This document shows, piece by piece, positions 1-4,117 of a stretch of DNA of 43,998 bases (position 1 is its first letter; every line of letters begins with the position of its first letter). The position numbers and the translations under genes were made by a program. Source of the DNA: Pseudomonadota bacterium (GTDB lineage: Bacteria > Pseudomonadota > Gammaproteobacteria > Burkholderiales > Burkholderiaceae_C); contig JAFEEB010000003.1 in the NCBI GenBank assembly GCA_018241325.1, positions 5,123-49,120 of the forward strand. Reading direction: 5' to 3'. The notes under the pieces are model-generated. The model was not told where the DNA came from. It searched no databases and saw only the letters and a list, made by a program, of their open reading frames with translations.

Positions 1-91
1 CGCCGCCTTGGGACGGCCCGGCGGCAGCGCGACATGGCCCCGATGCGGCCGTGCTGCACGGCCGGTCGCACCGGATCGGGTTTTCGGTCAC
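1..91 (-). CDS. gspK: Probable minor pseudopilin GspK, N-terminal fragment (cut by left edge)
   Basis: A reading frame opens with GTG at 91-89, overlapping the TGA stop of gspJ in a 4-nt GTGA arrangement, and continues off the window. It reads MTENPIRCDRPC and then translates repeat DNA at about 1-30 that is nearly identical to the repeat inside the gspJ leader. No prepilin motif is reached before the edge. The assignment to GspK (the large capping minor pseudopilin of type II secretion) rests on gene order alone: gspK normally follows gspJ. Moderate to low confidence; the start is inferred from the overlap and from the same habit at the other junctions here. Confidence 0.45.
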   Translation of the reverse strand, partial: MTENPIRCDRPCSTAASGPCRAAAGPSQGG

Positions 92-975
92 CGCGTGCCT
101 CCGCCAAACGCGCCCAGCGTCGCCGAGGGGTCGGTGGCATAGGGGGGCGTGAGGGCCACGATCAGCGGCGGCCAGGGGGGCGTGGGGCCGTCCACCTGCA
201 GCGCGACGGCGCTGGGCAGCAGATCGACGGGCAGCGCGCTGACCGGCACGCCGGCGGGCGGCCAGACGGGGCTCCATTGGCCGGTGCCGGGGTCGAGATA
301 ACGCAAGCCGAGCGCGCTGGCGGGTGCGGCCAGCACCTGGCCGGCGGCCTGGCCCCAGGCGTCGAAGCCGGGCGCGCCGGTCCAGGGCGCGTAGCGCAGC
401 ACCAGGCGGGCGCCGCCCTCGCCCGGCTCGAGCGCCAGGCGCATGTAGTGGCGCCCGCCCAGGCCGTAGCGGGCGGGCATGACACCGATCCAGGCCAGCG
501 CATTGGGGCCGCCCTGGAAGTACGGCGCCTGGGCCGGGTTGTCGGCGTTGCCGCTGGGGTAGCGGCGCGCCGAGGCGCGGGCCAGGGCTTCGGCCAGAAA
601 GGCGTTGGCCAGGCGGTAGTCGTCGGCGTCTTCGACGCGCTGCTCGATGCGCGTTTCGACCTGGCCCATGGCGCGCAGCGCGCTGGTGAGCACCAGCATC
701 AGCATGGCCAGCAGCACCAGGGCGATCAGCACCTCGACAAGGGTGAAACCTTGGCCCCCACGCTTCGCTGCTGCGCATGCTGCGCTGCCCCCCGAGGGGG
801 CTCTCGCCGCCTTGGGACGGCCCGGCGGCGGCGAGACTTGGCCCCCACGCTTCGCTGCTGCGCATGCTGCGCTGCCCCCCGAGGGGGCCCTCGCGCCTTC
901 GGGCGGCCGTGCGGCGCTCGAGGTGCCCCCACGCTTTGCTGCTGCGCATGGCGCGCTGGCCGACGGGCGCTTCAT
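88..975 (-). CDS. gspJ: Type II secretion minor pseudopilin GspJ with a repeat-derived, very long leader
   Basis: Minor pseudopilin of the type II secretion pseudopilus, an inner-membrane and periplasmic piston component that works with GspI and GspK at the tip. The class III signal is clear: KRGGQG followed by FTLVEVLIALVLLAML, with cleavage after Gly76 and Glu at +5 of the mature protein. The mature part is about 219 residues, normal for GspJ. The start ATG (975-973) overlaps the gspI stop as ATGA, which favours it and means translational coupling. Odd: prepilin leaders are usually 6-20 residues, while this one is 76 and consists of two copies plus a fragment of an 85-90 bp repeat, so the peptide APSGGSAACAAAKRGG occurs twice. 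No usable in-frame start is evident nearer the cleavage site. Family is confident; the true start is less so. Confidence 0.85.
   Translation of the reverse strand: MKRPSASAPCAAAKRGGTSSAARPPEGARAPSGGSAACAAAKRGGQVSPPPGRPKAARAPSGGSAACAAAKRGGQGFTLVEVLIALVLLAMLMLVLTSALRAMGQVETRIEQRVEDADDYRLANAFLAEALARASARRYPSGNADNPAQAPYFQGGPNALAWIGVMPARYGLGGRHYMRLALEPGEGGARLVLRYAPWTGAPGFDAWGQAAGQVLAAPASALGLRYLDPGTGQWSPVWPPAGVPVSALPVDLLPSAVALQVDGPTPPWPPLIVALTPPYATDPSATLGAFGGGTR
749..958. repeat. Repeat family C: two tandem copies and a fragment within the gspJ leader
   Basis: Copies at about 749-837 and 838-922 share the block CCCCCACGCTTCGCTGCTGC, then a GC-rich CCCCCCGAGGGGG dyad and a GGCGGC-rich tail. A third, partial copy covers about 923-958. 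They are translated in frame as part of GspJ. A piece of the same element lies at 1-30, and a diverged copy is upstream of the acyl-CoA synthetase at about 43241-43356. Relative to the downstream gene all have the same orientation: the GCGTGGGGGC end points toward the gene start. Confidence 0.85.
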
Positions 976-1511
976 CGGGTGGCCTCGCCGGGCTGCGGCA
1001 GGCGCTGCGGGCGCAGGCTGGACAGCTCGAACGTGCGTTGCACGTCGCCGTCCTGCCAGGCCACGTCGATCCGCACCTCGTGCAGGCGGGCGGCTTGCGG
1101 CGCGGCGTTGTTGACGGCCGTGGGATAGGGCCGGCTGTCCACCGTCCAGCCGTAGCCGGCGGCCTGGCCGGTCTCATGAAGGCCCTGGGCCGGAACCACG
1201 GCGTGCGCGGCAAGCAGGGACTGCGCCAGGATCATGGCGCGCTCGTGCTGGGCCAGGTTGCTGGCCTGGCGCGCGTTGTTGCCGCTGACGCGGTAGAGCA
1301 TGCCCAGGGCCATGGCGGCGATGGCGAAGGCGACCAGGATTTCGAGCAGGGAGAAGCCAAGCTGTGATGACCGGATGCGCCGCGGGCCCCTCACCCCAGC
1401 CCCCTCCCCAGAGGGGCGAGGGAGCAAAACCCTCGCGCCGCCACGCGGACGGCCTGCTCCCTCTCCCGCTGGCGGGAGAGGGTTGGGGTGAGGGTGGCGC
1501 GCCCGCGTCAT
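972..1511 (-). CDS. gspI: Type II secretion minor pseudopilin GspI
   Basis: Minor pseudopilin that nucleates the pseudopilus tip with GspJ and GspK. The prepilin motif is SSQLG followed by FSLLEILVAFAIAAMALG, with cleavage after Gly52 if the ATG at 1511 is used; that ATG overlaps the gspH stop as ATGA. The mature protein is about 127 residues, ordinary for GspI. The first 39 codons read through a palindromic repeat (1388-1494). An in-frame GTG at 1394-1392, at the downstream end of that repeat, would give a 13-residue leader MRGPRRIRSSQLG of normal size, and it has GGGGAGGGGG a few bases upstream as a Shine-Dalgarno-like stretch. Both starts are credible. The 3' end overlaps gspJ. Confidence 0.88.
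   Translation of the reverse strand: MTRARHPHPNPLPPAGEGAGRPRGGARVLLPRPSGEGAGVRGPRRIRSSQLGFSLLEILVAFAIAAMALGMLYRVSGNNARQASNLAQHERAMILAQSLLAAHAVVPAQGLHETGQAAGYGWTVDSRPYPTAVNNAAPQAARLHEVRIDVAWQDGDVQRTFELSSLRPQRLPQPGEATR
1388..1494. repeat. Repeat family A, complete copy in the gspI leader
   Basis: Two inverted halves, CCCTCACCCCAGCCCCCTCC (1388 onward) and a GGGAGAGGGTTGGGGTGAGGG end (to 1494), each with its own small hairpin, flank about 30 bp of unique sequence. The element lies wholly inside the 5' part of gspI. Other family A copies: about 1955-2072, 3992-4081, 18124-18159, 22341-22414, 22602-22655 and 41405-41442. Confidence 0.85.
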
Positions 1512-2098
1512 GGCTCGATCGCCTCCTGCTCGACGCGGCCGGAGAACCAGTCCACGCGCAGGCGCACGCCGGTGCCGGAGGGGCGGATCAGATCGACGCT
1601 GCCGCCCGAGGCCCCGCCGCGCGGCAAAAAGCGCACGGCCAGCCGGCCACCCTGGGTGCCCTCCTCGGCGGCCATGACGGCGCGCAGCGTGAGCGGCTCG
1701 GGCACGGTGTGCTGGGGGCCGCCTTCGATGCCGAAGCTGCGGGCCTGCAAGTCCACGGTGAAGCGCGTCTCGACGCCCTGGCTTTGCGCCTGCTGGCGCG
1801 CGACGCGCAGGTCGGTGAGCACCTGGCGCACGGTGTCGCGGTATTGCACCGACTCGTGCAGGCGGCCGAAGGCGATGGGCACCAGGCCGACGACCAGGGC
1901 CATCAGGGCGATGACGACGAGCAGCTCGATGAGGGTGAAACCAGAGGCCGATCGCCTCCCCCTCTCCCGCTGGGGGCGGGTTGGGATGGGGGCTGCCGGC
2001 GCCGGCACGATCGCTGCCGATGGTGCACGCCCCAAGCCCTCACACCCGCCTTTCCCCAGCGGGGGAAGGGGCCTGCCCGCAAGGAGCCGCACGGCCAC
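1508..2098 (-). CDS. gspH: Type II secretion minor pseudopilin GspH
   Basis: Minor pseudopilin placed just below the GspIJK tip. The class III motif is SASG followed by FTLIELLVVIALMALV, cleaved after the Gly encoded at 1942-1940; the remaining beta-rich domain of about 140 residues fits GspH. The frame opens at GTG 2098, directly next to the gspG TAA stop, which would give a 53-residue leader. A GTG at 2008 would give 23 residues. Because gspG ends at 2099, any start must lie in the 1943-2098 stretch, most of which is family A repeat. Family confident, start unresolved. Confidence 0.85.
   Translation of the reverse strand: MAVRLLAGRPLPPLGKGGCEGLGRAPSAAIVPAPAAPIPTRPQRERGRRSASGFTLIELLVVIALMALVVGLVPIAFGRLHESVQYRDTVRQVLTDLRVARQQAQSQGVETRFTVDLQARSFGIEGGPQHTVPEPLTLRAVMAAEEGTQGGRLAVRFLPRGGASGGSVDLIRPSGTGVRLRVDWFSGRVEQEAIEP
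1955..2072. repeat. Repeat family A copy between gspG and the mature part of gspH
   Basis: One half (1955-1992) is a CTCCCCCTCTCCCGCTGGGG-type hairpin ending GGGTTGGGATGGGGG; the inverted other half (2037-2072) begins CCCTCACACCCGCCTTTCCC. The central spacer is unrelated to that in the gspI copy. The copy occupies the gspH leader region. Confidence 0.8.
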
Positions 2099-2536
2099 TT
2101 ACTGCTTGTTCTGGACGTCGGCGTTCTCGCCCTCGCCGCCGGGGGCGTTGTCGGCGCCCAGGGAGAGGATCTGGATGCCGCCGTTGGGGCCGGGGTTGGC
2201 GTAGCGGTAGGGGTTGCCCCAGGGGTCGGCGGGCAGGCCGCCTTTCAGGTAGGGGCCGTTCCAGCCGTTGGCCGAGGCGGGCTTGGTGACCAGCGCCTGC
2301 AGGCCCTCGGCATTGGTGGGGTAGCGGCCGACGTCGAGCTTGAACAGTTCGAGCGACTTGTCCAGGTCGGCGATCTGGATGGCGGCGGTCTTGCTCTTGG
2401 CACCGCCCAGGCGCTCCATCACGGCGGGGCCGACCAGGCCGGCAAGCATGGCGATGATGGCGATGACCACCAGCATTTCGATCAGGGTGAAGCCGCGCGC
2501 GGCGCGCGCGGCCTGGCGACGAATGAATGCGTTCAT
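2099..2536 (-). CDS. gspG: Type II secretion major pseudopilin GspG
   Basis: Major subunit of the type II secretion pseudopilus. A 15-residue leader MNAFIRRQAARAARG is followed by FTLIEMLVVIAIIAMLAGLV, with the invariant Glu5 of the mature protein. The globular part carries the expected alpha-C region (KSLELFKLDVGRYPT, GLQALV), the NGWNGPYLKGGLPADPWGNPY stretch (which forms part of the calcium-site region in this family), and a C-terminal GENADVQNKQ tail. Its 145 residues match the family. Unlike gspH, gspI and gspJ, its leader carries no repeat. It is separated from gspF by a structured 190-bp gap (2567-2725). Confidence 0.95.
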   Translation of the reverse strand: MNAFIRRQAARAARGFTLIEMLVVIAIIAMLAGLVGPAVMERLGGAKSKTAAIQIADLDKSLELFKLDVGRYPTNAEGLQALVTKPASANGWNGPYLKGGLPADPWGNPYRYANPGPNGGIQILSLGADNAPGGEGENADVQNKQ

Positions 2537-2566
2537 GAATGGATTCCTTTTTCGGTGGAGGCGTCA

Positions 2567-2725
2567 GAGGTTGAGAGTTTTTTGAGCGTGCCCGAGGGGC
2601 GCGTCCAAATGCGCCCAATCAAGGCGCGAAGCGCAGTCGTAGCTCGGGCTACGGCGAGCATTTGCAACGCCGAGTGGGTGCGTTTGGGCGTGATCAGCGG
2701 GCATGAACAAAAGACTCTCAACCTC
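2567..2725. repeat. Long imperfect hairpin element between gspF and gspG
   Basis: Outer arms at 2567-2584 and 2708-2725 are complementary in 17 of 18 positions (GAGGTTGAGAGTTTTTTG against CAAAAGACTCTCAACCTC). A second stem pairs the TCCAAATGCGCCCAATC region (about 2603-2625) with CGAGTGGGTGCGTTTGG (about 2671-2687). The apex is the perfect small hairpin GTAGCTCGGGCTAC at 2639-2652. The whole 159-bp gap could fold as one extended stem in RNA. It may be a mobile intergenic repeat or a structure that sets gspG level relative to gspF. Confidence 0.7.
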
Positions 2726-3949
2726 TCAGGCCGCCAGATCGTTGATCGACAGGATGCCCAGCAGGATGGAGACGATGATGGCGGCGATCAGCGCGCCCAG
2801 CACCAGGATGAGGATGGGTTCGAGCAGGGTGAGCGCGCGCTTGATGCCGGTTTCGACCTCGCGGTCGAGCACGTCGGCCAGCTCGTTCATCATGGGACCG
2901 ATGCGGCCGGTTTCCTCGCCCACTCGGATCAGGTTGATGGCCAAAGGTTCAAACACGCCGGTGGCCTCCATGGCGCGCACCATGCGCGCGCCCTCCTTGA
3001 CCAGGGGCGCCATCTTGGCCAGCGGCGCGCGCAGCTTGGTGTTGCCCACGGTCTCGGTGGCGATGTGCAGGCCGGTGAGCAGCGGCACGCCGTTGCCCAG
3101 CAGGGTGCCGAGCGAACGCGAGAACAGCGTCAGCTCATATTTGTAGAGCAAGGGGCCCACGACGGGCAAGGCCAGCACACGGGTTTGCCACCAGGCGCGG
3201 CCGGTGGGCGAGCGCAGCCAGCGCCAGGCCAGCCAGCCCAGCACGGCCGCGCCGATGGCAATGGCCAGGCCGTTGTGCCGAAAGCCCTGGCCCAGGGCCA
3301 TGACGATGCGGGTGGGCCAGGGCAGCGCGTCGCCCATGCCCTTGAAGAGCTTCTCGAACTGGGGCACGACGAAGCCCAGCATGCCCACCAGCGAGAGCAC
3401 GGCCACGCCCAGCAGGATGGCCGGGTACAGGGTGGCGGACACGACGCTCTCGCGCAGGCTGCGCACGCGCTCCATGTGGGCCACCAGGCGCTCGAGCACC
3501 TCGGACATCTGGCCGCTGGCCTCGCCCGAGCGCACCATGTTGATGTAGAAGTCGCCGAACAAGGCATCGTGCTTGGCCAGCGCGCGCGAGAACGGGGCGC
3601 CGCCCTTGACGTCTTCGAGCACGCCCTGCAACAGCTGTTGCACGCGGGGCTTGGCGGTCATCTCGATCAGCACGCGCAGCGCGTTGTCCAGCGCCAGGCC
3701 GGCGCGCAGCATGATGGACAGCTCGCTGGTGAAGGCCAGCACGTCGGTGCGGCCCACGGGGCCCTTGTCCACGCGCCGCGCCCGCCCGCCCACCATGACG
3801 GCGGCCGTGGCGGCGGCGTTCTCGACCTTGAGCGGCGTCAGGCCGCGCTCGCGCAGCTGGCGCAGCACGGCGTCGGCGGCGGCGGCCTGGCTGCGGCCTT
3901 CGATCAGCTGCCCGTCGGACTGGGCGGCGCGCCATGCGAATTCAGGCAT
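2726..3949 (-). CDS. gspF: Type II secretion inner-membrane platform protein GspF
   Basis: Polytopic platform protein that couples the GspE ATPase to pseudopilus assembly. Its 407 residues are the family size. It opens MPEFAWRAAQSDGQLIEGRS; two homologous GspF domains follow, each with the signature series of acidic and Pro-Gly residues (SELSIMLRAGLALDNAL in the first, RSLGTLLGNGVPLLTGL in the second). Three hydrophobic segments are seen: about 170-195, 220-245 and the C-terminal stretch at 375-400. The start ATG at 3949 has an AGGGG upstream. A family A repeat fills most of the gap to gspE. Confidence 0.94.
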   Translation of the reverse strand: MPEFAWRAAQSDGQLIEGRSQAAAADAVLRQLRERGLTPLKVENAAATAAVMVGGRARRVDKGPVGRTDVLAFTSELSIMLRAGLALDNALRVLIEMTAKPRVQQLLQGVLEDVKGGAPFSRALAKHDALFGDFYINMVRSGEASGQMSEVLERLVAHMERVRSLRESVVSATLYPAILLGVAVLSLVGMLGFVVPQFEKLFKGMGDALPWPTRIVMALGQGFRHNGLAIAIGAAVLGWLAWRWLRSPTGRAWWQTRVLALPVVGPLLYKYELTLFSRSLGTLLGNGVPLLTGLHIATETVGNTKLRAPLAKMAPLVKEGARMVRAMEATGVFEPLAINLIRVGEETGRIGPMMNELADVLDREVETGIKRALTLLEPILILVLGALIAAIIVSILLGILSINDLAA

Positions 3950-3991
3950 GACCGTGACCCCTGCGGCACGGCGCCGCCCCGTGGCGACCGC

Positions 3992-4081
3992 CCCTCACCC
4001 CTCCCTCTCCCCAAAGGGGCGAGGGCGAACGGTTGGGGGGGGTTGACCCCCTCTCCCTCTGGAAGAGGGTGGGGGTGAGGG
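3992..4081. repeat. Repeat family A copy between gspE and gspF
   Basis: Inverted halves CCCTCACCCCTCCCTCTCCC (3992 onward) and a CTCTGGAAGAGGGTGGGGGTGAGGG end (to 4081) flank a short G-rich spacer. Here the repeat stays outside the coding frames. Confidence 0.8.
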
Positions 4082-4117
4082 CCGCGGCGTTGATCGAATG
4101 CGGGGCGTCCACGGCAC

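Follow-up and report, generated by a model that had tools for sequence, protein, structure and literature searches.

Pseudopilin genes and repeats at the left end of the window

The 43,998-nucleotide stretch analysed here (the window, G000:C33:5123-49120) comes from a genome of 3.82 Mb that we infer to group with the genus Ottowia. Its left end holds a minus-strand type II secretion system (T2SS) operon of gspE, gspF, gspG, gspH, gspI and gspJ, followed by the start of a presumed gspK, and the subject of this analysis is the repeat DNA found where several of these genes encode the leader (the N-terminal stretch ahead of the cleavage Gly). Prepilin leaders are cytoplasmic and are removed by prepilin peptidase after the Gly, according to the accessible text of PMC10191384. 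We consider it likely, judging from the sequences, that small mobile repeats have inserted into the minor-pseudopilin leaders of Ottowia T2SS, are kept when in frame, and are translated and then cleaved off. Two repeat families recur at this locus: family A consists of units spaced 87 or 84 nt apart, and family C of two inverted arms. The features are as follows (window coordinates).

2099..2536, minus strand: gspG, major pseudopilin; 15-residue leader; TIGR01710 over cut-off
1508..2098, minus strand: gspH open reading frame, opening at GTG 2098 (actual start uncertain); Gly codon 1942-1940; PF12019 over cut-off
972..1511, minus strand: gspI, from ATG 1511, in an ATGA overlap with gspH; 52-residue leader; Gly codon 1358-1356
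88..975, minus strand: gspJ, from ATG 975, in an ATGA overlap with gspI; 76-residue leader; Gly codon 750-748
1..91, minus strand: presumed gspK start, GTG 91-89, in a GTGA overlap with gspJ; A repeat tail at 1-57; runs past the window edge through a run of N
1958..2071, no strand: inverted repeat pair in the gspG-gspH spacer or gspH 5' region; arms 1958-2001 and 2028-2071
1381..1501, no strand: paired C repeat within the gspI leader; arms 1381-1408 and 1474-1501; predicted to form a strong RNA hairpin over the leader
1392..1394, minus strand: alternative in-frame GTG start of gspI; 13-residue leader; within the C repeat and the predicted stem
750..961, no strand: three A repeat copies in the gspJ leader, at 750-816, 837-903 and a diverged copy from 921
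3989..4084, no strand: C-type inverted repeat pair in the gspE-gspF spacer; C core match at G000:C33:9183-9203

PF07963 (the prepilin N-terminal motif: Gly, a hydrophobic stretch and Glu at +5) is over cut-off in gspG, gspH, gspI and gspJ and not in gspK, and the NCBIfam equivalog profiles for GspI, GspJ and GspK were matched with scores below their cut-offs. If the junction of gspG and gspH is written G>H, and the others likewise, then E>F, F>G, G>H, H>I and I>J all carry inverted or direct repeats and J>K carries A repeats.

Repeat DNA occupies most of the stretch from start to cleavage Gly in gspI and gspJ, and the frame is open throughout. An earlier reading of the same DNA (the sequence-only reading) had described a 76-residue GspJ leader with two copies of one peptide, and this is what is found: SGGSAACAAAKRGGQ occurs twice, followed by a shorter third copy. 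The A copies that encode it are spaced 87 and 84 nt apart, both multiples of 3, and there is no in-frame ATG, GTG or TTG between ATG 975 and the cleavage Gly. The normal 15-residue leader of gspG, read directly from the sequence, and the retention of the overlaps (ATGA at the starts of gspI and gspJ, GTGA at that of gspK) were likewise as described. The broader claim of that reading, that four neighbouring genes have repeat leaders, holds only in part: it is firm for gspJ and probable for gspI, which has alternative starts (weighed below), but it finds no support for gspH. There the in-frame starts include GTG codons giving leaders of 23, 51 and 53 residues and a TTG giving one of 32, and a 53-residue repeat leader was rejected because G>H is an uncoupled spacer with these shorter in-frame starts inside it. 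For gspK, A repeats do lie in the leader region, but the frame is unreadable. A run of 70 N (L003 5053-5122) ends directly before window base 1 and has A repeat on both sides, so the gap lies inside an A array, and since it interrupts the leader region any frame assigned to gspK is arbitrary.

Neither family owes its presence in the leaders to chance similarity, as shown by copy counts set against reversed controls. The A core has 20 matches at ≤2 mismatches in the 3.82 Mb genome (0 for the reversed core), and the C core has 144 at ≤3 mismatches (1 for the reversed core). Across 29 genomes of the genus, C copies range from 0 (in 5 genomes) to 148 per genome; the reversed C control gives 0-5, except for 36 in G001. 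A k-mer repeat census of 13 sources from the window's genome returned 33 clusters at a strict threshold, a result unused here. By eye, a GTAG or CGTC tag before the hairpin is not evident in A or C. One Y1 transposase gene (PF01797) was found in the genome (G000 C39, L275), and within the mismatch limits applied its 3.3-kb locus contains neither an A nor a C core. Another repeat, neither A nor C, adjoins this gene by eye (ATGGGGTCAGATC and variants). The gspF-gspG spacer of the window (2556-2736) holds an imperfect inverted repeat with 65-nt arms that are 75% complementary; it contains no A core, and no C core among 100 of the 144 matches.

The same genome has a second T2SS operon (G000:C73; L119 4900-5240 and just past gspJ2), in which gspJ2 and the presumed gspK2 also have repeat leaders. 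The gspJ2 leader is 112 residues of A repeat with an 87-nt period, its ATG sharing one base with the gspI2 stop, and the gspK2 leader is 80 residues of A repeat entered at an ATGA overlap. (gspG2, gspH2, gspI2 and gspJ2 were checked by NCBIfam, with GspH2 and GspJ2 below cut-off; gspK2 is named from its position and hydrophobic start only.) The A repeats in the gspJ leaders of the two operons are about 80% alike and run in opposite orientations, so they are separate insertions. Net charge in the leaders of gspI and gspJ of the first operon and of gspJ2 and gspK2 is +8 to +17, which fits the cytoplasmic side. Being repeat DNA, the leaders look non-coding to a codon-usage model, and such a model alone was rejected as proof of coding status.

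Overlap starts and reading frame in related operons

The genes gspG to gspK were placed on loci of the genus, for which there were 28 congeners, and of a wider-family set. Each junction was described by its in-frame starts and by the distance separating the upstream stop from the cleavage Gly (the gap). Gaps of >90 nt were called long, and a start was called coupled if it was in frame and lay 1 to 8 nt ahead of the point where the upstream stop ends. This gave 62 rows for G>H, 68 for H>I, 70 for I>J and 68 for J>K. J>K of L048 has a negative gap and belongs to neither the short nor the long class, and the second operon of the window's genome (L119) stands outside the junction table, its gspJ2 and gspK2 junctions being added by hand.

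The sequence-only reading had pointed to relatives as a place to find repeat-free alleles, and most relatives do have short leaders at the same overlaps. In the congeners closest by gspJ, the gspJ leader is 12 residues (G025), 10 residues (G020) and 11 residues (G017) long; the gspI leader of G017 has 14 residues, G020 gave no H>I row, and G025 shares the gspI insertion of the window. Short gaps (≤90 nt) have a coupled start at all 61 H>I junctions, at 63 of the 67 I>J junctions and at 53 of the 62 J>K junctions, as against 3 of 38 at G>H. The overlap is thus ancestral at H>I, at I>J and mostly at J>K, and rare at G>H.

Among long gaps at the coupled junctions, the frame is kept in 5 of the 7 at H>I, in all 3 at I>J and in all 4 that could be measured at J>K (5 are long, that of L003 being unmeasurable). 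With gspJ2 and gspK2 added, 14 of 16 long coupled junctions are in frame (binomial p 1.2e-5 against an expectation of 1/3), and none of the 16 contains an in-frame stop, compared with 10 of the 24 long G>H gaps (Fisher p 0.003). None of those 24 has a coupled start. G>H is an internal control, with the same operon and genomes and with neither coupling nor frame constraint. Positions in the operon were compared as well: among first operons of the genus, 11 of 47 junctions at H>I, I>J and J>K are long versus 1 of 42 at K>L, L>M and M>N (p 0.004), a count that takes H>I of L048 as not long (otherwise 12). L>M is coupled likewise and has no long gap in 13 rows, and in the window's genome K>L, L>M and M>N are all short. 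Outside the genus, in the wider-family set, 3 of 156 prepilin junctions are long.

Alignment of the gspI leaders of the window and G025 shows the same C pair, with gaps of 3, 3 and 39 nt, all of them whole codons, and the gspI leader of G028 (compared with the C repeat of the window's genome only) matches it at 81-84%. The gspJ site has been occupied by other elements. In G002, the gspJ leader region (399 nt; L037) contains an element of about 170 nt that matches at least 39 other sites of its genome at 81-95% identity, and a second element that matches at least 2 (both from 40 of 165 candidates scored); a GTAG-like start is visible in this leader by eye. In G003, the gspJ leader region matches at least 40 other genome sites at 72-97% identity (40 of 376 candidates scored). 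In both, reading from the ATGA start meets no stop before the Gly, over 134 residues in G002 and 97 in G003, and neither leader matches the leaders of the window's genome at E 0.01 or over more than a 15-nt stretch. Distinct repeat sets are found in three species at one site, the gspJ leader. As a side observation, the 170-nt element of G002 sits in a 2.9 Mb genome and looks like a recently active miniature inverted-repeat transposable element (MITE).

Competing accounts of the long leaders

The explanation we favour is that small mobile repeats of more than one family, resembling repetitive extragenic palindromic (REP) elements or MITEs, insert where minor pseudopilin genes encode their short leader. 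Translation of gspI, gspJ and often gspK would begin at an overlap of the ATGA type with the preceding gene, and because of this mode of entry the insertions that persist would mostly be those that preserve the frame and introduce no stop. The repeat would be translated into a long basic leader, rich in Gly, Pro, Ala and Ser, that stays in the cytoplasm until prepilin peptidase cuts it off, and its removal would leave the mature pseudopilin unchanged. The sequences themselves provide the identity of the repeats in the window's genome, the overlaps, the open frames, the conservation of frame across species and the short alleles of congeners; use of the overlap start in vivo, cleavage of the long precursor and near neutrality of the insertions are presumed by the model. 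Mature domains, judged by length alone, fall within these ranges apart from outliers: 128-132 residues for GspG, 142-153 for GspH, 122-136 for GspI, 192-233 for GspJ and 243-295 for GspK. The outliers are GspG of L208 (144), L238 (197) and L239 (192), GspH of L048, L119 and L241, GspI of L119 and L241, GspJ of L048, and GspK of L225 and L259. The T2SS of L048 (G003) has an apparently shortened gspH (117) and a gspJ that extends to 550 residues into gspK, which suggests frameshifts or assembly errors.

Several observations weigh against this explanation. Internal in-frame ATG, GTG or TTG codons occur in 12 of the 14 in-frame long leaders (the gspJ leader of the window and the gspK leader of L049 are the only ones without), so a shorter product is possible in most. 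The gspI leader of the window is one of the 12: GTG 1394-1392 and a TTG, both within the repeat, would give leaders of 13 and 24 residues, and as the window and G025 both keep the internal GTG, the start could be supplied by the repeat. The two long coupled junctions that are out of frame are gspI of L043 and gspI of L048, the latter in an operon whose gspH seems to be frameshifted and where an ATGA giving an 11-residue leader can be seen. The number of events is smaller than the number of rows, since L003 and L034 share one gspI insertion; the long leaders of L208, L042, L049, L212 and L264 are only putatively repeat DNA; many of the compared genomes are draft assemblies; and over its first 137 nt the gspJ leader RNA is no more stably folded than shuffled sequences (z -0.18).

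Could the repeats be ordinary intercistronic REP-like spacers, with the genes starting within or downstream of them and the long leaders being read-through frames in GC-rich DNA? Such an account fits gspH, in line with the G>H control, and gspI of L043, it may apply to gspI of the window through GTG 1394, and it draws on the same internal starts in 12 of 14 leaders. The accessible text of PMC3733652 adds that many N-terminal REP open reading frames may be non-coding, with translation possibly starting downstream. We nevertheless think it unlikely: in gspJ of the window, ATG 975 is followed by no further in-frame start up to the Gly, and the 14 of 16 long coupled junctions that keep their frame, with no in-frame stop, are unlike the G>H spacer. 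RNA folding bears on gspI as well. Its leader RNA is predicted to fold at -100 kcal/mol (z -5.98 versus shuffles), and the GTG at 1394 and the purine stretch preceding it lie in the predicted stem, which would make independent initiation there less likely. That hairpin can be read in another way, namely that the repeats are retained because their hairpins or long leaders adjust how minor pseudopilins, of which little is needed, are translated or processed. The fold of the gspH 5' region (z -2.5) and the run of repeats from E>F through J>K, next to short K>L, L>M and M>N gaps in the same genome, are consistent with tuning. The unremarkable fold of the gspJ leader is not, and since most congeners have short leaders such an effect does not appear to be needed; we hold this account to be improbable.

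A more serious alternative, though one we lean against, is that prepilin leaders are not special and that repeats sit in frame wherever a gene tolerates them. Fifty repeat loci, comprising each of the 20 A cores and 30 exact-match C cores out of 144, were analysed with a codon-usage Viterbi model, and the tally of locations within open reading frames covers the A cores only. Five of the 20 are in pseudopilin leader regions (3 in gspJ, 1 in gspK with its frame broken by the N run, and 1 in gspJ2), 1 is at the N terminus of a lolD-like frame, 8 are inside seven other frames, and 6 are intergenic or could not be assigned. Multicopy A and C repeats are thus present both between and inside genes, and the pseudopilin leaders belong, as one kind of site, to a broader pattern of repeats within open reading frames of this genome. 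Against the idea that they are nothing more, leader regions form a very small part of the genome yet hold 5 of 20 A cores, and long junctions in the genus are commoner at prepilin genes than at K>L, L>M and M>N, in small numbers. The suggestion of the sequence-only reading that a removed leader is a tolerant place for insertion therefore gains from the frame keeping, the congener gspJ leaders and the second operon, and loses some of its specificity to the same repeats inside other open reading frames.

A stronger form of the favoured explanation is one for which we see the chances as about even: prepilin leaders would be a recurrent refuge for unrelated mobile repeats, which the host removes at the protein level, with ATGA coupling acting as a filter for 3n, stop-free insertions and tandem expansion by 87 nt (29 codons) lengthening the leader. 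The two T2SS operons of the window's genome, which hold the repeat in opposite orientations, both show this lengthening pattern. By analogy, and with the same balance of probability, an element that is transcribed, translated and discarded by prepilin peptidase could be regarded as the proteolytic counterpart of intron or intein removal.

Translated repeats in other systems and other genes

Translated bacterial repeats are already known; what is new is their recurrent landing in prepilin leaders. The closest precedents are the Rickettsia palindromic elements (RPE), short palindromic repeats found in frame inside conserved protein genes. A and C were likened to them by description, with no RPE sequence compared, and an RPE-like trait is found here in that the insertions are in frame and absent from homologues (in a UvrA-like frame compared with the solved UvrA 2r6f, and in gspI and gspJ compared with the short congener alleles). 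The host is different, and here several copies stand in a leader that prepilin peptidase is expected to remove. The accessible parts of PMC2229807 describe RPE, ERIC and YPAL elements fused in frame to open reading frames, among them a guanylate kinase with an RPE that retained activity with changed affinity, and YPO1552, a putative exported protein whose signal peptide is partly formed by the element. The ERIC and YPAL fusions thus resemble the present case in their in-frame fusion and partly repeat-derived signal peptide; they differ in concerning a putative exported protein, and the accessible parts of that paper mention neither class III leaders nor recurrence across species. PMC3733652, in its accessible text, reports GTAG and CGTC REPs inside open reading frames (uvrA included), REP-encoded N-terminal stretches, and RPE-1 at N termini expressed in vivo in Rickettsia. 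These intragenic REPs are alike in location, but no link of A or C to either family emerged: a check of the paper's text for two C-core words found neither, and its accessible part does not mention prepilin leaders. Leader length itself varies, and the major pilins of Streptococcus sanguinis have very long leaders; the accessible text of PMC10191384 mentions no repeat origin for these type 4 pilins. The statement of the sequence-only reading that no earlier description exists should accordingly be narrowed: a literature search (most subscription papers lay outside it) found no report of repeats in prepilin leaders, but translated repeats, including a signal peptide partly formed by one, had been described.

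If the favoured explanation is true, the peptidase-removed leaders of translationally coupled genes would be a class of protein segment that tolerates mobile repeats because processing erases them. Related pseudopilins would also offer a natural series of leaders, 6 to 134 residues long from the overlap start, with which the effect of leader length on prepilin targeting and cleavage becomes testable. For annotation, no general rule makes it safe either to trim repeat-derived N termini or to keep them, and the coupled frame needs checking at each junction.

Internal A or C repeats were also found in open reading frames that match Pfam domains for GlnE, FtsX-like permease, CobQ, UvrA and penicillin-binding protein. 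In the UvrA-like frame, the repeats (residues 164-261) fall between residues 441 and 446 of 2r6f, the match before the gap being weak. Further repeat-bearing frames, identified by eye, are presumably those of phosphoglycerate kinase (pgk), acyl-CoA dehydrogenases, a histidine kinase, a UvrD-like protein, LpdA (in a linker) and LolD. Non-pilin frames with A or C repeats are located at L060, L063, L064, L066, L068, L069/L095, L070, L084, L091-L093, L098 and L103. The CobQ frame among them (L069/L095) contains several repeat insertions, one of which separates the nucleotide-binding N-terminal stretch from GGEIGSAQ, and a long repeat array precedes its amidotransferase domain.

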